This document shows positions 53,774 through 63,288 of a DNA stretch of 64,000 bases, piece by piece. The notes beneath the pieces are model-generated. The model was given only the letters and a program-made list of their open reading frames with translations, made no database searches and was not told the origin of the DNA. The translations under genes and the position numbers were made by a program. The stretch is from Gemmatimonas phototrophica. Lineage in GTDB: Bacteria > Gemmatimonadota > Gemmatimonadetes > Gemmatimonadales > Gemmatimonadaceae. Each line of letters begins with the position of its first letter. Positions within the stretch are counted from its first letter, which is position 1. Location: contig NZ_CP011454.1 in the NCBI RefSeq assembly GCF_000695095.2, forward strand, positions 2,728,001 through 2,792,000, written 5' to 3'.

Positions 53774-55195
53774 TCAGAACCCGGCGACGTTGAGACGGCC
53801 GCCGGTGACCACCTTTCCGGCAAGGGACGGGGTCGACGCAGCGCTGCTCATAATGGCGGTCTTGATCTGCGCCGCCGAAGCGCCGGGGTTGAGGCTCGCG
53901 TAGAGCGCCGCGGCACCACTCACATGCGGCGTGGCCATGGACGTGCCATTGTAGCTCGCGTAGCCACTGGTGACCGGCCCATTCTTTCTCGTCTGCCGCG
54001 GAACCGTGCTCCAAATGGCGCTTCCCGGCGCACCGATGTCCACCGTAGTGGCTCCATATTGCGAAAACGAGCTCAGCGCACCGGTGCTGGTGATGGACGC
54101 CACCGCAATAATGTTGGAGCTGGTGTACCCCGACGGATACGAGGCCGTGGCATCGTTGTTGGTGCCGCTGTTACCGGCGGCAGCAATAAACAGGATGCCG
54201 GCCGTGTTCGCGCGATCGATGGCGTCCTTCAGCGCCTGCGAGAACCCGCCGCCGCCCCAGGAGTTATTGGTCGCGACAATGTTCAGGCCCTTGCCCTTCA
54301 AATTGGTGAAATAATCCACCGCCTTGATGGCATTGGCCGTCGTACCGCCCCGACTGCCGAGAAACTTGGCACTCAGCATCTTCACGTTCCACACCACACC
54401 AGCCACACCTTTTCCATTGCCACCAACGGCGCCAATGGTGCCAGCCACGTGCGTACCGTGGTCGTCGGCCACGCCATCGAAGACGGTGTTGTTGTTGCCG
54501 GCGAAGTCCCAGCCATAGACATCATCGACCAAGCCATTGCCGTCGTTGTCTATACCGTCGCCTTCCACTTCACCCGGATTCACACCGGCGTTGGGTGCCA
54601 AGTCTTCGTGCGTGTACATGTAGCCTTCATCGATGATGCCGATGTACACGCTATTGCTACCGGTCTTCCCCGCCGCCCATGCTGTGGCCGCTCCGGTACC
54701 ATACAGATTGGCCGGACTGGTTGACGCGCCGTACATCCCCCACAACGACCCATTCGTGAAGTACGTGTCGTTCGACGTCGCCTGATGCTGATAAATCCAG
54801 TTGGGCTCCGCAAACTCCACATCGGGATCGGCTTGCAGCGCCGCAATCGCACGAGAAAGGTCGCCGTTCACTTTGATGCGGGTGACACCCACCCGACGTC
54901 CGCGTGAGCGCATGGCCCCGGTGAGAATTTCTTCCGACACCTGCCCGCCCACCCGGCCCAGCGCCCGACCACGGCCCGTGGCCGTGATGCCTTCCTTGAA
55001 CTGCACCAGCAACTCACCGGCCACGAACTCCGGTGGCCCCGCCTGAACGGCCGCCATGGCATCGGCGGCACTCATGAAGGCGGCTTCACTTTCTGGGGCG
55101 GTCAAACTTTGCTCGGGAGAGCAGGCGGCGGCAAAGGCCAGCGAAGCGGCAGCGGTCAGGCGGGAGAGACGTTGAGCGGTGGGGCGCACGGTCAC
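53774..55195 (-). CDS. Subtilase (S8) peptidase, exported lipoprotein
   Basis: A 473-residue subtilisin-family serine peptidase. The N-terminal lipoprotein signal (LTAAASLAFAAACSPEQ) is followed by a prodomain of about 110 residues (GELLVQFKEGITATGRGRAL and EFAEPNWIYQHQ), resembling the fervidolysin-type inhibitor. Catalytic residues are D189 in IGIIDEGYMY (where Thr-Gly is usual after Asp), H246 in DDHGTHVAGT and S419 in NGTSMATPHVSG; the oxyanion Asn lies in ATNNSWGG. The GTG at 55195 is chosen because GGAG lies 6 bases before it; an ATG at 55228 is an alternative. It follows the SARP gene by 152 bases on the same strand and could process the nearby peptides; that is conjecture. Confidence 0.88.
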   Translation of the reverse strand: MTVRPTAQRLSRLTAAASLAFAAACSPEQSLTAPESEAAFMSAADAMAAVQAGPPEFVAGELLVQFKEGITATGRGRALGRVGGQVSEEILTGAMRSRGRRVGVTRIKVNGDLSRAIAALQADPDVEFAEPNWIYQHQATSNDTYFTNGSLWGMYGASTSPANLYGTGAATAWAAGKTGSNSVYIGIIDEGYMYTHEDLAPNAGVNPGEVEGDGIDNDGNGLVDDVYGWDFAGNNNTVFDGVADDHGTHVAGTIGAVGGNGKGVAGVVWNVKMLSAKFLGSRGGTTANAIKAVDYFTNLKGKGLNIVATNNSWGGGGFSQALKDAIDRANTAGILFIAAAGNSGTNNDATASYPSGYTSSNIIAVASITSTGALSSFSQYGATTVDIGAPGSAIWSTVPRQTRKNGPVTSGYASYNGTSMATPHVSGAAALYASLNPGASAAQIKTAIMSSAASTPSLAGKVVTGGRLNVAGF

Positions 55196-55263
55196 AGGTG
55201 ACTCCGGTAGAGGCGGGACACAACGCATCAGCGGGGGATTACCCGCACGGTTGCTGTGCTACA

Positions 55264-55347: not shown

Positions 55348-57357
55348 CTACGTACCCACAGCCTCCGGGTGCGTCATCGCCAACACCCGTCGAAGTTCAT
55401 CGCGCACCAACGGACTGCCACTCTGCCGCAGGTACTCGACCAGCACCGGAGAGGCACAGCGAAAGCCGCCATCCTGCTCCATGGCCAGCCCAAGTTCCAC
55501 CAGACGTTGCCCCAATACGCCAGCCCGCAACCTTGAGATTCCGTGGAGGTGCGACAGCCGGTCAAGCGAAACCGCCGGGCGCGCACGCCATTCAGCCAAC
55601 GGCACGGGGTGCCCCTGCTCCATATCGAGCGCCAATGATAACAGCACGGTGCGCGCCACATCGTCCAGCGACTCTACATGCTGCTGTGCCCGCGCCGCCA
55701 ACGGCGCAATACATGGCGCGGCCAATGAATGCGTCTGCCACTCGGTCGATATCGCCCCCCAGCGTTGCTGCATCAGTTGCAACGACGCCTGCACATACCC
55801 CGGCACGCCGTGCGACCCGTGATGGATACACTCGGCAACCGCGCGCCACCCCGAGGGCACACGAGAGAGTTCCACCAGCATGCGCTCAACGCCTTCGATC
55901 GACAACGGCGCCAGTTCCACTCGTCGACTCGATCGCGCAAAATCGGCCCACGCAGGGTTGTTGCGCTCTTGCCCAAGGTCATCCGCCCCGGTGAGTAGCC
56001 AAAGGATTGGCGCCTCAGTGGTCCGCATCGCCACTGCCTGCAATACGTTGGCGCTTTCGCGGTCATACCACATGGCGTCATCGAGCGCCACCACCGCCAC
56101 GGTGTCTTCACAGATCGCGAAGAGTGCCTGCGCGAGTGCCTCCTGCAGTCGAATGGAGAACGTGGCATCTGAGGGTGGTAGTGCCATGGCGCTTCGCCGC
56201 AAAGCCGGGAATCGCTCCTCCAACGCCGGCACGAGCGTCCGCAACGTCTGCAGGTGTGTTTCGTGCACGCCGCCCAGAGCGGCGAGGTCCACCATCTGTT
56301 GAATCAGCGCTGCGGCGGCACCATACGGCATCACCGGGGCATGGGGTGGCGATGCCGCCGCTATCACGGTCGCGCCACGCATCGCGCACATGGCCGCGAC
56401 ATCCTGAAGTAAGCGCGTGCGCCCTGCCCCGAGTCGCCCTTCGAGTGTCACGCCACTTGCACGGCCACTCTGTGTCACGTCATCAAACGCCGCACCGAGG
56501 GTCGTCCACGGCACATCCCGTTCACAGAGACTGGCCAACAGCGAACGGGGAGGGTCAACCTGTACCTTGGCCGTCCCGGCGGCTGGCACGGCAACGGCGC
56601 CGTGGACGGGAGTGACCCAACGCACCGCGCGCAGACGCTGCATGGCGTTCCGAATACGATCACCTTCTGTGTCGGTTGCCCTTCCCTCCTCCGCCAAACG
56701 TCGAAGGGCCTGGTCGCCAAGCGTGTGGACACGCGCGTCGTCATGCAGCAGTACCGCGGCGTCAATGGCCTGGCAGGCCGCGTCCACCGACTCCGGCACG
56801 ATGTCCAGCCAGCGCTCGGCAGCCGCCAGCGCGGACGCATAGTCGCGACGGGCCGTGGCCTCTTGCACGGCGCGCGCCAACGACGCCTGTGCCAACCGCA
56901 CCAGACGCGCCCTGGTACGGTCCCCCCAGTGCAGAAACTCCGGGGCATCCTCGGCGGTCACGTCCTCCAGGAATCGGTGCACATCCGTTTCACACGCCTC
57001 TCGCGGTTGCCTCTCGTGGAGGGCAAGGAACTGCAGCACGTCGCAGCGGCAGGCAGAGGCGAACGGCTCACGCTGCAACGACACCATCGTGCGATCGGAC
57101 CGCAGCGCCTCCCCACACACGTCTCGCAGCTTGCTGAGCGCCTGCCGCAAAGACATTGCCGCGTGCGCCTCATCGCTGTCGGCCCAGAGCAGCGTGGCAA
57201 GGTGCGCCCGCGAATGTGGACCGGGTTCAACGGCCAGGTAGGCCAGCAGGGCGGCGGCTTTCCGCGGTAACGGCACCCGCTGACGTTCGCCATCCCGCAG
57301 CGAAAGTCCGCCACACAATTGCAGGGAAAGCCCCGTGCGGGCATCAGCCAGCGGCAT
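55348..57357 (-). CDS. SARP/BTAD-type transcription regulator with degenerate ATPase
   Basis: A 669-residue regulator. Residues about 10-100 form an OmpR-like winged helix (LPRKAAALLAYLAVEPGPHS, RAHLATLLWADSDEAHAAMS), followed by a BTAD-like helical domain to about residue 250 (CDVLQFLALHERQPREACET). This is the SARP architecture. The remainder is an AAA/STAND-like segment; the phosphate-loop region reads GRLGAGRTRLLQ, with Arg replacing the Walker A Lys, so ATP binding may be lost. Walker B-like VVALDDAMWYD follows. The gene diverges from the peptide genes across 197 bases that hold three CTTTCAC repeats. The start ATG 57357 is the first in frame. It most likely activates the peptide and export operon. 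Confidence 0.83.
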   Translation of the reverse strand: MPLADARTGLSLQLCGGLSLRDGERQRVPLPRKAAALLAYLAVEPGPHSRAHLATLLWADSDEAHAAMSLRQALSKLRDVCGEALRSDRTMVSLQREPFASACRCDVLQFLALHERQPREACETDVHRFLEDVTAEDAPEFLHWGDRTRARLVRLAQASLARAVQEATARRDYASALAAAERWLDIVPESVDAACQAIDAAVLLHDDARVHTLGDQALRRLAEEGRATDTEGDRIRNAMQRLRAVRWVTPVHGAVAVPAAGTAKVQVDPPRSLLASLCERDVPWTTLGAAFDDVTQSGRASGVTLEGRLGAGRTRLLQDVAAMCAMRGATVIAAASPPHAPVMPYGAAAALIQQMVDLAALGGVHETHLQTLRTLVPALEERFPALRRSAMALPPSDATFSIRLQEALAQALFAICEDTVAVVALDDAMWYDRESANVLQAVAMRTTEAPILWLLTGADDLGQERNNPAWADFARSSRRVELAPLSIEGVERMLVELSRVPSGWRAVAECIHHGSHGVPGYVQASLQLMQQRWGAISTEWQTHSLAAPCIAPLAARAQQHVESLDDVARTVLLSLALDMEQGHPVPLAEWRARPAVSLDRLSHLHGISRLRAGVLGQRLVELGLAMEQDGGFRCASPVLVEYLRQSGSPLVRDELRRVLAMTHPEAVGT

Positions 57358-57445
57358 GCATTACGCCATTTGCGCAGGAGAGTCGAGCCCATCCGGTGAA
57401 CGCCCTAATGTCCTTCCCGTACGGCCGAAGGGCCAGTGAGGACCC

Positions 57446-57499
57446 TTTCACGGAAGCCCCGGGGGCTTTCACGATGCTTTCACACCCCTCCCGTAAGCT
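57446..57499 (+). promoter_or_regulatory. Candidate SARP operator and promoter for peptide genes
   Basis: Three direct repeats, TTTCACG at 57446, TTTCACG at 57467 and TTTCACA at 57478, each preceded by C. The last two start 11 bases apart (heptamer, 4 bases, heptamer), the spacing known for SARP regulators; the first is 21 bases away, about two helical turns. A weak -10-like TAAGCT begins 9 bases after the last repeat, near the 8-base distance known for SARP sites. The start of peptide 1 is 55 bases on. Confidence 0.6.
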
Positions 57500-57554
57500 C
57501 TCCCCAGGTCCGCGGCGAACGCCGTCCCTCCCCACCCTGTTCTGGAGAACGACC

Positions 57555-57719
57555 ATGAGCACCGAATCGAAGAAGGACAAGAACTTCCTCCGCATCGAAC
57601 TCACGCCGGCCCAGCAGGAACAGGTCATGAACGAGACCGGCAAGGCGGCCGACGCCATTGAATTGACCACGTCCGAGCTGGAAGAGCGCGTGGCGCCGCG
57701 CCGCATGATCGACGCCTGA
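57555..57719 (+). CDS. Small peptide 1, candidate RiPP-like precursor
   Basis: A 54-residue peptide of unrecognised family. It opens MSTESKKDKNFL, continues with IELTPAQQEQVMNETGK, ADAIELTTSELEERVAPR and ends RMIDA. There is no signal peptide, no Cys and no membrane segment; the body is predicted as two acidic helices. Peptides 2 and 3 share the body and differ in the tail. GGAG lies before the ATG at ribosome-binding distance, and 55 codons are free of the GC-skew artefacts seen in shadow frames. It is first in the row facing away from the SARP gene. Precursor function is inferred from paralogy, the variable tail and neighbouring export genes. A regulatory protein or antitoxin is an alternative. 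Confidence 0.75.
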   Translation: MSTESKKDKNFLRIELTPAQQEQVMNETGKAADAIELTTSELEERVAPRRMIDA

Positions 57720-57764
57720 TTCTCTGTCACCCGCGTTCTCACCCTCCTTTCAGAGGCAACTCCA

Positions 57765-57926
57765 ATGAGCACCGAATCCAGCAAGGACAAGCGCGTCGTC
57801 AGCATCGAGTTGACCCCCACGCAGCAGGAACAGGTCTTCAAGGAAATTGGCAAGTCGGCCGACAGCATTGAAATGTCGCCGGCCGAGCTGGAAGAGCGGA
57901 TCGCACCGCGGCGCTTCCAGCCCTGA
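57765..57926 (+). CDS. Small peptide 2, paralogue of peptide 1
   Basis: A 53-residue paralogue, 45 bases after peptide 1 and probably on the same transcript. It begins MSTESSKDKRVV, shares IELTPTQQEQV, GK, IE, ELEERIAPR, and ends RFQP. The first five residues and the spacing of conserved blocks are identical to peptide 1, indicating duplication. AGAGG lies 9 bases before the ATG. The tail after APR is four residues. A hairpin with a T-rich flank follows, so transcription may often stop here. Confidence 0.75.
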   Translation: MSTESSKDKRVVSIELTPTQQEQVFKEIGKSADSIEMSPAELEERIAPRRFQP

Positions 57927-57951
57927 AAGCAGCAAGACATTGGGCTAGGTA

Positions 57952-57987
57952 ACAGGCCGGCGAGCTATCGCCGGCCTGTCGTCTTTT
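57952..57987 (+). terminator. Intrinsic terminator after peptide 2
   Basis: ACAGGCCGGCGA, loop GCTA, TCGCCGGCCTGT, then CGTCTTTTATGG. The 12-base stem is perfect. Position between peptide 2 and peptide 3 would give more messenger for peptides 1 and 2 than for peptide 3 and the export genes, unless peptide 3 has its own promoter in the 136 bases that follow. Confidence 0.8.
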
Positions 57988-58122
57988 ATGGTGACAATCC
58001 GATCTCCTGTTGGAAGGAATAGCCCCAATGGTCTTTCCTGTCGCCGGCATGAGCCGAAAGAGGGACGCGTGCGGCCTTCCCTCGTGCAGGCAATCGACAT
58101 CCACCCAGAGCGGAGAATGACC

Positions 58123-58284
58123 ATGAGCACGCCCAGCGAGAAGGAAAAGTCGGTCCCCATCGAACTGACCCCGGAGCAGGAGGAGCAGGTCATGAGCAGC
58201 ACGGGCAAGGCGCCAGAAGCCATTGAGCTGTCGAGCACCGAGCTTGAAGAGCGAATCGCCCCGCGTATCCGCCTGCGCCCGTAA
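58123..58284 (+). CDS. Small peptide 3, paralogue of peptides 1 and 2
   Basis: A 53-residue paralogue: MSTPSEKEKSVP, then IELTPEQEEQVMSSTGK, IELSSTELEERIAPR, ending IRLRP. It is more divergent than the first two but keeps all conserved blocks. GGAG lies 7 bases before ATG 58123, favouring it over an in-frame ATG at 58117. It precedes the GAF-HlyD gene by 101 bases, with a perfect hairpin between. The tail after APR is IRLRP. Its position next to the export operon makes it the likeliest cotranscribed member. Confidence 0.75.
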   Translation: MSTPSEKEKSVPIELTPEQEEQVMSSTGKAPEAIELSSTELEERIAPRIRLRP

Positions 58285-58299
58285 CGCTTTCTTCATGTT

Positions 58300-58341
58300 G
58301 TTCACGCGCCGCCCGGGCTATCGTCGGGGCGGCGCGTGAAC
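58300..58341 (+). terminator. Perfect hairpin between peptide 3 and export operon
   Basis: GTTCACGCGCCGCCC with its exact reverse complement, a 15-base stem and a 12-base loop. It lies 15 bases after the peptide 3 stop and 44 before the GAF-HlyD start. No T-run follows, so it may be an attenuator, a messenger-stabilising structure or a weak terminator. Confidence 0.65.
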
Positions 58342-58385
58342 ATATTGGCGCGTATGCTCTGCTTCATTTGTCCCCCGCCTCATCC

Positions 58386-60230
58386 ATGACGAGCAGCGCC
58401 CGCCCAACCGCCTACGACGACGTCCACGACGCCACCCTGGCATTCCTCGGCGCACGTGAACCGGTTGCCCTGTGGCAGGCACTCCTCGGACACGCGATCG
58501 CGGCACTGGACGGCTACGGCGGGTCATTCTGGACGCCCCATGCCGGTGGGCTCCGCCGCATCATGGTGGGCGGCGTGGACGAATTGGCCCGGGAAGTTGA
58601 GCAGCTGGAGGGAGATGATCTCCCCAGACTCTCCGAGCAGTCAACCGATTCCTATATCGTGGCGCGCGAGATCCGCGGGCCTGACAAGCGGTTGATTGGC
58701 GTCTTGCGGGTGTGTCGCCCGCGCGAGGATGGAGCCCCCGACGAGGCCGCGCTCGATACGCTCAAAGCGATGTTGACCGTGGCCGCGAATGTGGCCGGTC
58801 AGCTGCTCCGCGAACAGGACCTTCAGGCCAAGGCCCGCGATTTCACCTTGGTTGCCGAACTCAGCCGTGAAGTAACGGCCACACTCGACCTCGATCGGGT
58901 GTTGCGTGTTGTAGTCAATCTCGCGGCGCGGGCTGTCACCTTCGACCGGGGTGCGCTCGCACTGTACGAAGATGGTACGTGCGACATTCGTGCGGTCTCC
59001 GGCGCCGACAAGGTGGACCCGGAGGATCCCAAGCTGCGCGACCTCGCTGAACGCGCCGCGTGGGCCGCTGGCCGGGGTGAAGGGCTCTACGTTTCCGACC
59101 GCGACGATCCGGGGTCAGACGCCGAACGCGTCTTCCTCCAATTCTTCTCGGCGGATCTCGAAGCGGACGATACCCGCAGCGGGCTCTATCTCCCGTTGCG
59201 TGATGAAGAAGGAATTGTGGGCGTGCTGGTCCTGGAAGCGCAGCGGGCGGAATTCGCCACCGATCATCAACGCGACGTGGCCGAAATTCTCGCCAATCAG
59301 GCCACGGTGGCCATCCGTAATGCGCGCCTGTACTCGCAGGTCCCGCTGGTCGATATGCTGGGGGCTATTGGCGAGCGCCGGAAAGCATTCAAGGCCATCC
59401 CGAAGCGCACCAAGCGTCTGGCCGCTGCGGCGGCGGTGCTCGGGCTCCTGATGTTGACGCTTGTGCAGTGGCCGCTGCGTGTTGACGGCCACGACGCCGT
59501 GCTGCTGCCGGCAGAACGCACCATCGTGCGCGCCATGCTTGACGGGCAGATTGAACAGGTCCTCGTTCGCAGCGGGCAGCAGGTCGCGCAAGGCGAGCCG
59601 CTCTTCCGATTACGGAGTCTCGATCGCGCCGGTGCCCGTGACGCCGTGCTGGCCGATGTTGAGGCAGCAGAGCGTGAGGCCGCACTGGCTGCGAGCCTCG
59701 GCGATGCCGTCAACGAGCGACTGGCCAGGCTCCGCGCGCAGTCGGCGCGTCAACGGGCTGAGCAACTTACCGCCGAGGTACGTGCCACGGTCATTCGAGC
59801 CCCGACCGCCGGTGTTGTGCTCACGGAGCGACTCGATGAACTGCTCGAGACCCGCGCGCTCGCCGGGGCGCCGTTGCTGACGCTCGGTCGCGTGGATTCG
59901 CTCGAGGTCACCTTTACGGTGCCGCAGCGCGAAGTGACTCGATTGGCCGCAGAGCAGCGCATCCGCCTCCGCACCGAGGCGGTCCCGCAGCGAACGTTTG
60001 AAGGGCGAGTCATTAGCATCGCGCCGTTGCCCACCTTGCTGGCCGATACCGTCACGGCGGCGTCGGCCACGTTTCCGGTGCGTGCCCTGGTGGCCAATGA
60101 TGATGCCCTGCTGCGCCCTGGCATGACGCCGTACGTTCGCGTCCTCACCGATCGCGCGTCACTCGCGGAACGCTTGCTGCGCCGCCCGTGGCGGGCCGCG
60201 CGTCTCCTCTTCTGGAAGCTCACGGCATGA
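58386..60230 (+). CDS. GAF domain-HlyD membrane fusion protein
   Basis: A 614-residue fusion. Residues about 10-145 and 155-325 form one divergent and one clear GAF-like domain (RDFTLVAELSREVTATLDLD, ALALYEDGTCDIRAVSGADK, RSGLYLPLRDEEGIVGVLVL). A helical linker and a membrane segment follow near residue 345 (LAAAAAVLGLLMLTLVQWPL). Then comes a HlyD/RND-adaptor domain: DGQIEQVLVRSGQQVAQGEP (lipoyl half), a short helical hairpin, VIRAPTAGVV (second half) and a beta-barrel part. The topology puts the GAF domains in the cytoplasm and the adaptor in the periplasm. Start ATG 58386 is used; a TTG at 58368 is in frame. Its stop overlaps the next gene (ATGA). No ABC ATPase is present. Confidence 0.83.
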   Translation: MTSSARPTAYDDVHDATLAFLGAREPVALWQALLGHAIAALDGYGGSFWTPHAGGLRRIMVGGVDELAREVEQLEGDDLPRLSEQSTDSYIVAREIRGPDKRLIGVLRVCRPREDGAPDEAALDTLKAMLTVAANVAGQLLREQDLQAKARDFTLVAELSREVTATLDLDRVLRVVVNLAARAVTFDRGALALYEDGTCDIRAVSGADKVDPEDPKLRDLAERAAWAAGRGEGLYVSDRDDPGSDAERVFLQFFSADLEADDTRSGLYLPLRDEEGIVGVLVLEAQRAEFATDHQRDVAEILANQATVAIRNARLYSQVPLVDMLGAIGERRKAFKAIPKRTKRLAAAAAVLGLLMLTLVQWPLRVDGHDAVLLPAERTIVRAMLDGQIEQVLVRSGQQVAQGEPLFRLRSLDRAGARDAVLADVEAAEREAALAASLGDAVNERLARLRAQSARQRAEQLTAEVRATVIRAPTAGVVLTERLDELLETRALAGAPLLTLGRVDSLEVTFTVPQREVTRLAAEQRIRLRTEAVPQRTFEGRVISIAPLPTLLADTVTAASATFPVRALVANDDALLRPGMTPYVRVLTDRASLAERLLRRPWRAARLLFWKLTA

Positions 60231-61213
60231 CCCGCGTCAATCTTCCACCGGCAACAGCACTGCTCATCGCACTGCTCACCGGCACCGCCTGTTCGGGCAC
60301 GCCAGACGCCAAGGCCGCCCAACAACGCGCATCGGGAACGAGCACGACCGGCCGCTTTGCTGCGGTAGAGTCCACCACAGTCAGCGAACCACTACGCCTG
60401 CCGTCACAGCTGTATGTGGAGCGAGACGCCGTGTTGTCCACACGTACCGATGGCGTACTGCGTGCGCTCACGGTGAATCTGGGCGCCAGTGTTCGCGCCG
60501 GACAGATAATGGGCAGCGTAGATGACGAGGCGCAGCGATTGGCGCAGGCGCGGGCGACCGTGGCGCTGGACCGGGCCACCAAACTCGCCTGGCGCGCCCG
60601 CGAGATGCGCACGAGCCAGAATATCCCCGAATCGGAAGCTGAGGACGCAGAGTTCGCCCTGCGCGAAGCCGACGTTGCCAAGCGTGAAGCCGACCTGGCA
60701 CTGGAGCGCACGGCCATCAAAGCGCCTTTCGATGGCGTGGTGAGTGCGCGCTACGTACAGCCCGGGCGTCTGTTGGCCGCCAATGATACCGTACTCCGTA
60801 TTACTGCACGCGGCCCCTATCTCGCGCGCGTGCGAATCCCGGAGCACGATGCCGATGGCCTGAAGTTGGGGCGTGTGCTGGGGGTCCAGGTGGGTGAGCA
60901 GACTCGGGGTCGCGGACGTGTGGTACGCATCGCCCCCGACATCGACGCGGCCAGTGGCACGCGCGAAGTGATTGTCGAAGTGGACGCGCGCGGCACCGCG
61001 CTCATGTCCGGGCGCGCGGTGGTCGTGGAGTTGCCGCGGGCCTCTCGCCCAGTGCTCACCGTTCCCGCCGCGGCCATCAGTGCGGATGGGTATGTCGTCG
61101 TACAGCAGGACGGACGCGCCGTGATGCGACCGATTGTTGCCGGAAACCGGTTTGATGATCGGGTAGAGGTCCGCGCCGGCCTCGTAGCCGGGGAGCGCGT
61201 GCGCCTCCCATGA
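60227..61213 (+). CDS. HlyD/RND-type periplasmic adaptor
   Basis: A 328-residue periplasmic adaptor. The N-terminus (PATALLIALLTGTACSGTPD) looks like a lipoprotein signal with a weak lipobox before Cys. DGVLRALTVNLGASVRAGQI is the first lipoyl half; a 70-residue helical hairpin (ARATVALDRATKLAWRAREM onward) follows, then AIKAPFDGVVSARYVQPGRL as second half. Beta-barrel and membrane-proximal segments close the protein (PAAAISADGYVVVQQDGRAV). It is the RND adaptor type, but no RND pump gene is near. It overlaps both neighbours by 4 bases. Confidence 0.87.
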   Translation: MTRVNLPPATALLIALLTGTACSGTPDAKAAQQRASGTSTTGRFAAVESTTVSEPLRLPSQLYVERDAVLSTRTDGVLRALTVNLGASVRAGQIMGSVDDEAQRLAQARATVALDRATKLAWRAREMRTSQNIPESEAEDAEFALREADVAKREADLALERTAIKAPFDGVVSARYVQPGRLLAANDTVLRITARGPYLARVRIPEHDADGLKLGRVLGVQVGEQTRGRGRVVRIAPDIDAASGTREVIVEVDARGTALMSGRAVVVELPRASRPVLTVPAAAISADGYVVVQQDGRAVMRPIVAGNRFDDRVEVRAGLVAGERVRLP

Positions 61214-63288
61214 GTACCGTTCGACGCCCCTCGCTGGTCAACGGCGTGCGCGTGGTCGAGCAGCGCTTTCAAGGAGAACCCGGGTTCGTGGTGAAGAGTC
61301 CGTCCACCGGCAAGTACCTGCGCTTCAAGCCGGTGGAAGCACGTGTCATGGAGCTCTTCAACGGCGAACGGACCGTGCATCAGGTGGCGGCGCAAATGAC
61401 GGCGGAAGGCACCAGTATCGGGGCTTCCACCATTGACGCGTTTGCCACGAGACTGGCCACACTGGGCATTGTGGATCGCACGCTCGTGGAGAAAACGTCG
61501 GCCCAACTCGAACGGTTGCGTGAGGAGCGCAAGGAACGCCGAAGAAAGCCGCTTTTCCGCGGCGAATTTCTGCGGATGCGTTTTCCCATGGGTGATCCGG
61601 ATCGTCTGCTCACGCGCACCATGCCACTGGTACGCTGGTGCTTCACCCCGGCCTTCGTGTGGGGGTCCGTGGCGGTATTCGCCTTTTATGCGTTACTGCT
61701 CACAGCCCGCTGGCAAGAGCTCACCACGTCGTTCAGCGCCCTGACCAACCCGGCCAATTGGAGTGTGGCCACGGCACTGATGTTCTGGGGTGCATTCATT
61801 GGTGTGGGCATTGTGCATGAATTGGGACACGCCTACGCGTGCAAAGGATTCCGCGGGGAAGTGAACGAAATGGGGTTCATGATCATGTACTTCCAGCCCG
61901 CCTTCTATTGTAACGTGAACGATGCCTGGACGTTTACGAAGCTCAGTGACCGGTTGTGGGTCACCGCCGCGGGCGCGTGGGTGGAACTGTTGCTGGGCGC
62001 TGCCGCTGCCGCGGTGTGGGCCGTTTCGGCGCCCGGCACGGTCATCTCCCAACTATCCCTCATGGTGACGTTGCTTGCCGGTGGACTGGCGCTACTCAGC
62101 AACGCCAATCCCCTGCTGCCGTACGATGGCTACTTCGCGCTGAGCGATTGGCTGGAAATTCCCAATCTTCGCCAGCGCGCGCTGGGCTACTTCAACTGGT
62201 TCTTCGCCACCACGATCCTCCGTCGCGAAGCCGAGGAGCCCGCCGTCACCGAACGAGAGCGCCGGATCTTTCTCTGGTACGGCGCGCTGGCGTCGCTGTA
62301 TATCGCCATGGTCTACACCATTGCGCTGCGCTTCGTCGTTCGCTGGTCCTACCGGACGTTTGGTATCACCGTGGCAACCGCGCTGGTGGTGGTTCTCATG
62401 ACATGGCAGCGCCATCGGTTGTTGGCCGCATGGACGGCTGTGCGCGCCGCCTGGCACGACTTCGCACGCCAGACGCTGCGCAGCCGCTTCGCGCTCATTC
62501 CCGCCCCGCTTCGGGGATGGCGGGGCGGGGCGTTGGGCACGGCGCTGCTCATGCTGTTGCCATGGCCGCGCAATGTTGACGGCGAATGGAACGCGCGACC
62601 GCTGGGCTATCGCGTCGTGACTGCCCAGACAGACGGTGTGATTACCGACGTACGCGTACGCGGCGGTGATATGGTGGTGGCCGGCGCCCCCATGCTGCAG
62701 CTACTCAACCGCCAGACGGAACGCTCGCTCACACAAGCGACGTTCGATCGGGATTCGCTGCAGTTACAGGAGCAAGCCTCAGTGGCCGCACGCGCCGGCG
62801 ACATCGCCACGCTGCAAGCGCGGTCACAAGCCGCCAGCGTACGTGCCGCCAACAGCCGGGCGGTTCAACGGCAATTGATCGTTCGCGCCACAACCACGGG
62901 CACGGTACTCACGGAACAGCCAGCGTTGCTGATAGGCAAGCCGGTGACTGCCGGCACCCCCCTGCTTCACCTCGGCCGCAGCGATTCACTGGAAGTCCGG
63001 GTGCACTTTCGTGGTGCAGGTGCCGCTGCACTGCAACCTGGTCAACGCATCCGCCTGTATCTGGACGCGGATGCCGCGAGGCCCATCACCTCAACGGTGT
63101 CGCGGGTGAGCCTTGTTGGCACGCCCGAACATCCGGGGGCAACGGAAGCGCTTGTACACCTTCCGGCCTCAGGCGCCTGGCGCGCAGGCACGAATGGCCC
63201 CGCCAGGGTGCGCTTGCAAATGGGGACGATTGGTAGCGCGATGCTCTGGGCCATACGCAGCCGCCTGCGCCCCGACTTTCTGTTGTAG
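61210..63288 (+). CDS. PqqD-like/M50 peptidase/HlyD fusion membrane protein
   Basis: A 692-residue fusion. Residues about 15-95 resemble PqqD, the peptide-chaperone or leader-binding fold (GKYLRFKPVEARVMELFNGE, IDAFATRLATLGIVD). A basic linker leads to a membrane region of about eight segments with the M50 site-2 protease motif HELGH (H203-H207) and the third ligand in NPLLPYDGYFALSD (D306). From about residue 455, a HlyD-like domain has TAQTDGVITDVRVRGGDMVV, a helical hairpin and RATTTGTVLTEQ. Its ATG overlaps the stop of the adaptor gene. It ends 11 bases from the convergent asparaginase. It is a candidate leader-binding peptidase and exporter for the peptides; this is inference. Confidence 0.86.
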   Translation: MSTVRRPSLVNGVRVVEQRFQGEPGFVVKSPSTGKYLRFKPVEARVMELFNGERTVHQVAAQMTAEGTSIGASTIDAFATRLATLGIVDRTLVEKTSAQLERLREERKERRRKPLFRGEFLRMRFPMGDPDRLLTRTMPLVRWCFTPAFVWGSVAVFAFYALLLTARWQELTTSFSALTNPANWSVATALMFWGAFIGVGIVHELGHAYACKGFRGEVNEMGFMIMYFQPAFYCNVNDAWTFTKLSDRLWVTAAGAWVELLLGAAAAAVWAVSAPGTVISQLSLMVTLLAGGLALLSNANPLLPYDGYFALSDWLEIPNLRQRALGYFNWFFATTILRREAEEPAVTERERRIFLWYGALASLYIAMVYTIALRFVVRWSYRTFGITVATALVVVLMTWQRHRLLAAWTAVRAAWHDFARQTLRSRFALIPAPLRGWRGGALGTALLMLLPWPRNVDGEWNARPLGYRVVTAQTDGVITDVRVRGGDMVVAGAPMLQLLNRQTERSLTQATFDRDSLQLQEQASVAARAGDIATLQARSQAASVRAANSRAVQRQLIVRATTTGTVLTEQPALLIGKPVTAGTPLLHLGRSDSLEVRVHFRGAGAAALQPGQRIRLYLDADAARPITSTVSRVSLVGTPEHPGATEALVHLPASGAWRAGTNGPARVRLQMGTIGSAMLWAIRSRLRPDFLL

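Follow-up and report, generated by a model that had tools for sequence, protein, structure and literature searches.

A candidate leader-tag export system centred on an RRE-site-2 protease-HlyD fusion protein in Gemmatimonadota

The stretch of DNA analysed here (the window, 64 kb) corresponds to positions 2,728,001-2,792,000 of a complete 4.72-Mb Gemmatimonadota chromosome, and it carries a block of three genes for short peptides followed by three genes of exporter type, all on the forward strand (coordinates below are those of the window). The peptide genes encode peptide 1 (54 residues, 57555-57719), peptide 2 (53 residues, 57765-57926) and peptide 3 (53 residues, 58123-58284). Pattern matching and the conservation profile revealed in each of them an eight-residue motif close to the C-terminus, hereafter the tag, which reads ELEERVAP in peptide 1 (57675-57698) and ELEERIAP in peptide 2 (57885-57908) and peptide 3 (58240-58263). 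The first exporter gene (58368-60230) encodes a GAF-HlyD protein (Pfam GAF 1e-13, HlyD_D23 5e-22) with one transmembrane segment near residues 348-366; its GAF domain is predicted to be cytoplasmic and its HlyD domain periplasmic, and homologues were present in most of the related cassettes. The second (60227-61213) encodes an HlyD/RND-type adaptor (TIGR01730, 3e-46) predicted to be a lipoprotein; because of its lipoprotein-type N-terminus, LLTGTAC, the ATG at 60227 was preferred as the start over the listed GTG at 60188. The third (61210-63288) encodes a 692-residue fusion of a recognition element of the type found in ribosomally synthesized and post-translationally modified peptide (RiPP) pathways (RRE), a site-2 protease and an HlyD domain. 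The three genes are joined by ATGA overlaps at the starts at 60227 and 61210. The first-pass annotation of this DNA had described a candidate peptide production and export system; its open reading frames were found where it had placed them, domain searches returned the domains it had named (GAF with HlyD, HlyD, and M50 with HlyD), and the observation as a whole was confirmed.

The three peptides are paralogues with pairwise identities of 63-64%. In their common block of 35 codons, the proportion of synonymous differences (0.44-0.52) exceeded that of nonsynonymous differences (0.17-0.25), and the peptides are therefore coding and under purifying selection as proteins. The claim of three paralogous peptides thus stands, and it is further supported by 41 distinct homologues in the phylum. 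Searches of the peptides against NCBIfam, NF012209 included, and Pfam gave no match; an AAA-lid match at an E-value of 0.015 was disregarded. Among the 41 peptides, L43, R46 and P49 (alignment columns) were invariant and the rest of ELEERIAP was nearly fixed. Information content fell from 4.3 to 1.7 bits at the residue directly after the proline, and the tails beyond it were 3-18 residues long (median 7), mostly basic and without common residues. Judged from the alignment, this sharp loss of conservation has the pattern of a boundary between leader and core. It was proposed earlier that the peptides keep one body and vary only in their ends; the conserved block is real, but differences between the paralogues also fall within the body. 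The arginine thought to be conserved after AP was not, and the block stops at ELEER[IV]AP. Likewise, the loss of conservation agrees with the view of the body as a leader followed by a short variable tail, although the recognition element appears to be the eight-residue leader end rather than the whole body, because small genes in three genomes and proteins of other phyla, described below, keep the tag without the body. By analogy with daptides, whose leader motif shares the frame E-L-E-x-x-x-A-P, cleavage would be expected after AP, not after APR as first suggested. For the window, this homology gives a leader of residues 1-48 in peptide 1 and the predicted products RRMIDA, RRFQP and RIRLRP for peptides 1, 2 and 3, respectively. 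One further ELEERVAP pattern match in the same genome, at 2351004, was not a small tagged gene.

We searched 298 Gemmatimonadota genomes with a profile built from the three window peptides and found homologues in 26 of them, 21 of which were strong. The M50-HlyD protein was present in 25 genomes at an E-value below 1e-50. Nineteen genomes contained both, two only the peptide and six only the M50-HlyD gene (Fisher p = 8e-23), so that the proposed tie between peptides and exporter holds in 19 of 21 peptide genomes. In both peptide-only genomes, the peptide lay on an incomplete sequence or near its end: in G178, it was followed by a GAF-HlyD gene at the contig end, and in G297, it was on a 5.8-kb contig. 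Among the M50-only genomes, the loci of G090 and G206 were cut by contig ends, and G110, G232 and G282 had tagged mini-genes just upstream (MKHLNPALEKLEQRIAPDLVGG..., MKHLYPSLEKLEERIAPDLVGG... and MKHLNLELEKLEERIATWAVPMGGGG..., respectively) that lacked the peptide body. The order regulator, peptides, GAF-HlyD, HlyD and M50-HlyD recurred in different families, whose proteins are about 40% identical. In one genome (G213), seven copies of the peptide were spread over several contigs and there was a single exporter, which is what a tag acting in trans would predict. Orphan peptide copies were found near kinases, cyclase-AAA proteins and SARP-like genes. No radical SAM, YcaO, lanthipeptide or ATP-grasp enzyme was seen among the scanned neighbours of the peptides, and no modification enzyme recurred in about 20 peptide loci or beside the orphan copies, the neighbours having been scanned in part. 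Separately, small Gemmatimonadota proteins (…VRIVLTPEQREAVRRLSGQHIDAIELTPDD…LLWRLSEATGIPRQRW…) at L028, L027 and L030 (genomes G026, G104 and G030) resembled the peptide body; they had no ELEERIAP tag, and their genomes had no exporter.

The fusion protein matched the NCBIfam model NF041824 (daptide_HExxH, daptide intramembrane metalloprotease) over residues 12-399 with an E-value of 1.8e-52, and the same model was matched by all 22 homologues tested. AlphaFold models had a mean confidence score (pLDDT) of 78 for the whole protein and 88 for residues 1-440, which were modelled alone since the adaptor domain filled the fold search with the whole protein. With residues 1-440, Foldseek alone returned no E-value below 0.001, and the assignments of the RRE and the site-2 protease rest on structural re-alignment together with sequence profiles. 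Upon re-alignment, residues 5-90 matched the leader-bound lasso peptide RRE TbiB1 (Z-score of 10.3, root mean square deviation of 2.3 over 82 aligned residues) and PqqD (Z-score of 9.6). The PqqD-like domain proposed earlier is thus clear in structure comparison, though marginal by Pfam (E-value of 0.11). The protease core resembled RseP, mjS2P and SpoIVFB (Z-scores of 10.2, 9.1 and 8.9, respectively), and the HlyD part resembled adaptors of the MexA/MacA/EmrA type (Z-scores of 13-14). The motifs of site-2 (M50) proteases, HExxH and NxxPxxDG, were present as HELGH (61816-61830) and NPLLPYDGY, and HExxH and DGY were invariant among 27 divergent relatives. On the basis of these models, the protein looks able to combine leader binding, cutting and export in one chain. 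Of the refuting outcomes named in the first-pass annotation, the computational ones were peptide homologues widespread without the M50-HlyD gene and the lack of a PqqD fold; neither was seen.

The machine also occurs outside Gemmatimonadota. Scanning a genome collection with the M50 alignment from Gemmatimonadota yielded 79 loci, more than 50 of them outside the phylum. Their flanks encoded low-complexity proteins of 600-2000 residues that start with a short Lys-rich stretch followed by LE[ED]RIAP[GA] (Bdellovibrionota, SAR324, Magnetococcales, Alteromonadales and Planctomycetota); LE[ED]RIAP-tagged proteins beside the cassette were also found in Armatimonadota and Betaproteobacteria. Small cargo was seen as well: Pseudogulbenkiania has small tagged peptides with Gly-rich tails of 30-40 residues, and an Armatimonadota genome has two small tagged-peptide genes with the tails KRPTGDGSGKISCFWR and KKPTTATSCGWLWR. 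Leader length among the tagged proteins varied between about 10 and 50 residues. When 39 genomes with the M50 gene were searched with a degenerate DNA pattern for LE[ED]RIAP, 27 of them gave 30 matches in total, all being N-terminal or leader-like tags of plausible genes, and the reversed control gave none. In 192 Bdellovibrionota genomes, there were 10 matches and three control matches; both genomes with a full M50 gene had the tag, and the other eight matches were not N-terminal tags (0 of the 190 genomes lacking a full exporter), one further genome (G339) having only a weak partial M50 match. A Planctomycetota locus (L193:8574-9218) encodes, near an M50-HlyD gene, a 215-residue protein in which LEERIAP is followed by about 35 Ser-Lys repeats.

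In Colwellia, Marinomonas, Aliarcobacter and some Planctomycetota, the flanking proteins started with LEPR[IL][LM][FLM] instead. Giants of the LEPR-XLL type stood beside the cassette in alpha-, beta- and gammaproteobacteria, Campylobacterota and Planctomycetota, and on proteobacterial plasmids the M50 relatives adjoined giant genes of 7-49 kb with tag-like N-terminal motifs (LETFEPRVLLSAD, VEPIEPRILLSAD, FEALEPRLLLSAD, DTLEPRVLLNAD, SLEPRMLFDGA, ALESRQLFDGA and ALEARYMFDAA). One such cassette (TolC, HlyD, HlyD and M50-HlyD; L096, 48490-68241) lies on the E. coli plasmid NZ_CP081785.1, and Citrobacter plasmids carry it too; it adjoins a 13.4-kb gene whose product is Ig-like and has the N-terminal motif ALESRQLFDGA. 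The idea that the machine is specific for peptides did not hold, as its relatives adjoin both the low-complexity proteins and these giants. The LEERIAP and LEPR tags may be one signal, because the machine and a core of [LIF]-E-x-R-hydrophobic are shared; no profile method joined the two. The giant loci add TolC and HlyD genes and, in alphaproteobacteria, also DUF3467 and a SecA-like ATPase. SecA-like genes lie directly downstream of PqqD-M50-HlyD in four alphaproteobacterial LEPR-XLL loci (L084:10096-12078, L083:10099-12105, L086:10138-12099 and L107:10139-12124) and downstream of it in one Planctomycete (L197:12145, forward strand, 680 residues); these ATPases are a candidate energy source.

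We compared the system with known ones. Daptide precursors carry the leader motif ELExMEAP (PMC10036551); the proposed leader remover is an RRE-site-2 peptidase, and the products are cut directly after ELExMEAP (PMC10036551, PMC12338566). In the daptide peptidase MpaP/DapP (NF041824), an RRE is likewise fused N-terminally to a site-2 metalloprotease, and daptide loci likewise hold several short precursors in which the product follows directly after the motif (here ELEERIAP). In contrast to MpaP/DapP, the protein described here has an HlyD domain fused at its C-terminus and a far wider range of cargo and phyla. Unlike in daptide loci, there was no ABC (ATP-binding cassette) transporter pair, and none of the daptide enzymes DapB, C, D or M, namely the oxidative decarboxylase (B, C), aminotransferase (D) and methyltransferase (M), was found in the operon, the neighbours of relatives having been scanned in part. 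Additionally, the C-terminal Thr of daptides was not shared, the tails ending in A, P, K, V, N and others. The features general to RiPP loci were found, with an RRE protein beside short precursors that have a conserved leader and a variable core. The LEPR-XLL giants (NF012209, LEPR-8K) share the cassette of GAF-HlyD, PqqD-M50-HlyD and HlyD genes and carry an N-terminal [LIF]E.R tag, and their loci often add DUF3467, SecA-like ATPase and TolC genes. Their cargo, however, has thousands of residues in place of 5-6, and the tag is LEPRxLL/LF instead of LEERIAP. With its 24 positions and 17-bit threshold, the NF012209 model gave a weak match in two of the 298 Gemmatimonadota genomes and none in the genome of the window. 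Peptidase-containing ABC exporters that work with HlyD and TolC (microcins and class II lantibiotics) couple leader recognition, cutting and trans-envelope export in a similar way; here, a site-2 protease and an RRE take the place of the C39 peptidase, and there is no ABC ATPase. Of the type I secretion components, the cassette has HlyD and no ABC or TolC gene; about a dozen TolC-family proteins are encoded elsewhere in the genome. The YydH/LiaK epipeptide maturation protease (NF058609) is also an M50-type protease for a small peptide, with a weaker sequence match; unlike its system, the one here has no radical SAM epimerase, and NF058609 has no RRE or HlyD match. In the open-access literature (subscription papers were outside the search), the combination of an RRE-site-2 protease-HlyD fusion with a shared tag was not found described, although a description may exist; LEERIAP and LEDRIAP gave only spurious matches, in papers on fungi and palynology, LEPR-XLL only two mentions in passing, and a link between tag and exporter was not found. 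The individual parts are known, and the daptide peptidase is clearly related, but the fusion, the lack of an ABC transporter and one tag for mini-peptides and large proteins look undescribed in combination.

Divergent from the peptide genes is a gene (55348-57357, reverse strand) for a regulator with an AAA_16 NTPase domain (Pfam 5e-11) and a weak Trans_reg_C match; its earlier label, SARP-like, is fair on these matches but not proven. A homologue adjoins or diverges from the peptides in most Gemmatimonadota loci. Between regulator and peptide 1, CTTTCAC occurs at 57445, 57466 and 57477 (57445-57483, forward strand), the last two with an 11-bp period. The pattern TTCACN6TTCAC was found in 11 of 14 regulator-peptide intergenic regions (2.3 kb in total; one of the 14 separates the regulator from GAF-HlyD instead) versus 44 occurrences in 2.2 Mb of other loci, and it occurs a single time in the whole window, at 57468. 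One of the three regions without the repeat is that of L067, a locus whose peptide gene follows the exporter. SARP regulators bind direct repeats of 11-bp period, and the TTCAC(G) repeats are probably the operator of the SARP-like regulator, such binding being predicted from sequence. A terminator-like hairpin lies between peptides 2 and 3 (57952-57979, forward strand; 12-bp stem, T-rich tail, -26.9 kcal/mol, z -4.6), and a strong hairpin, a possible attenuator, lies between peptide 3 and the exporter genes (58299-58342, forward strand; -40.7 kcal/mol, z -8.6); peptide and exporter transcripts may therefore differ in level. In two distant Gemmatimonadota (L071:11276-15596 and L082:807-4722), tagged peptides flank an 1100-residue adenylate-cyclase/AAA/TPR regulator and a 128-residue membrane protein, an arrangement hinting at peptide-regulator pairing. 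A subtilase (S8) gene with a fervidolysin-type prodomain (53774-55228, reverse strand) lies 119 bp downstream of the SARP-like gene on the same strand; no matching neighbour was seen among the loci of relatives.

Our preferred interpretation, to which we give a probability of roughly 0.7, is a leader-tag export system in which the RRE recognizes the tag, the protease makes the cut and the cargo goes on to an HlyD conduit, no ABC ATPase being involved. Each peptide would consist of a leader of about 48 residues ending in ELEER[IV]AP and a tail of 5-6 residues. The N-terminal RRE of the fusion protein would bind the leader end, and the membrane-embedded site-2 protease (HELGH) would cut after AP. 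The freed basic tail would then enter a periplasmic conduit, built from the GAF-HlyD protein, the lipoprotein adaptor and the HlyD part of the fusion, and would exit through a general TolC. The SARP-like regulator would drive the peptide promoter via the TTCAC(G) repeat of 11-bp period, and in other phyla the same pair of tag and machine would export larger tagged proteins, the LEPR-XLL giants included. Computation supports the gene block, the conserved tag, the co-occurrence, the folds of RRE and site-2 protease and the repeat footprint, from which cutting and its precise position, the direction of transport, the use of TolC, the source of energy and a signalling role of the tails are inferred. 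Several observations weigh against this interpretation. The NF041824 score was 179 bits against a curated cut-off of 300, and the specificity may therefore differ from that of daptides. No tag could be recognized near the exporter of one M50-only genome (G124). The loci outside Gemmatimonadota were found by similarity to the M50 protein and not by random sampling. The cassette encodes no energy source and contains no TolC gene, the SecA-like ATPases accompanying only alphaproteobacteria and a Planctomycete; the alphaproteobacterial SecA-like gene hints that the energy could come from the general Sec motor or from a paralogue. Finally, the peptide leaders are hydrophilic, which is unusual for site-2 proteases, as these usually cut transmembrane segments.

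The hydrophilic leaders would also suit a tag that is a docking or retention signal rather than a cleavage site, the M50-HlyD protein binding LExR to hold or translocate its substrate while the protease part is regulatory. The variable leader length would fit this as well, and the N-terminus of LEPR-XLL giants might stay anchored, as in retained adhesins of type I secretion. We consider it unlikely, as HExxH and DGY are invariant across 27 divergent members, conservation stops exactly at P and daptides are cut at the same 8-mer. Slightly less likely still is a RiPP pathway whose tails are modified before cutting by enzymes encoded elsewhere: the RRE, leader and multiple precursors follow RiPP logic and the peptidase is nearest to DapP, but no modification enzyme recurs among the scanned neighbours of about 20 peptide loci and of the orphan copies, and no modifiable residue is common to the tails. 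Site-2 proteases often act in signalling, and the orphan copies near kinases, cyclase-AAA proteins and SARP-like genes would agree with regulated intramembrane proteolysis. Such a system would export nothing, and its peptides would serve as regulatory subunits or inhibitors, either of the membrane protease or of the SARP-like regulator. This is improbable given the three HlyD adaptors in the operon and given that, in other phyla, the place of the peptides is taken by giants and by tagged proteins that look secreted. That conserved small proteins of unrelated function neighbour an efflux-like operon by chance is very hard to reconcile with the co-occurrence in Gemmatimonadota or with a tag that tracks the M50 gene outside the phylum with zero control matches.

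The leader-tag export system offers a recognition and cutting signal that can be tested in LEPR-XLL proteins, a group for which we found no function in the open-access literature, and ties these proteins to the daptide peptidase, which has been studied by experiment. It predicts exact mature ends for the window peptides, and the tag can be used to find the cargo of this route genome by genome. More tentatively, and at somewhat less than even odds, the system may represent an ABC-independent class of envelope export spanning about eight phyla, in which a single protein would recognize the universal tag L-E-x-R-h-[AL]-[PLF] (h, hydrophobic) at the leader end, cut there and hand the cargo to an adaptor conduit, whether this cargo is a peptide of 4 residues or a giant surface protein. 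In Gemmatimonadota, it would deliver tiny linear peptides, maybe a Gram-negative signal sensed via SARP/AAA regulators. Secretion of linear 4-8-residue peptides by way of a processor of their own would be uncommon among diderm bacteria, and such peptides could serve in communication.

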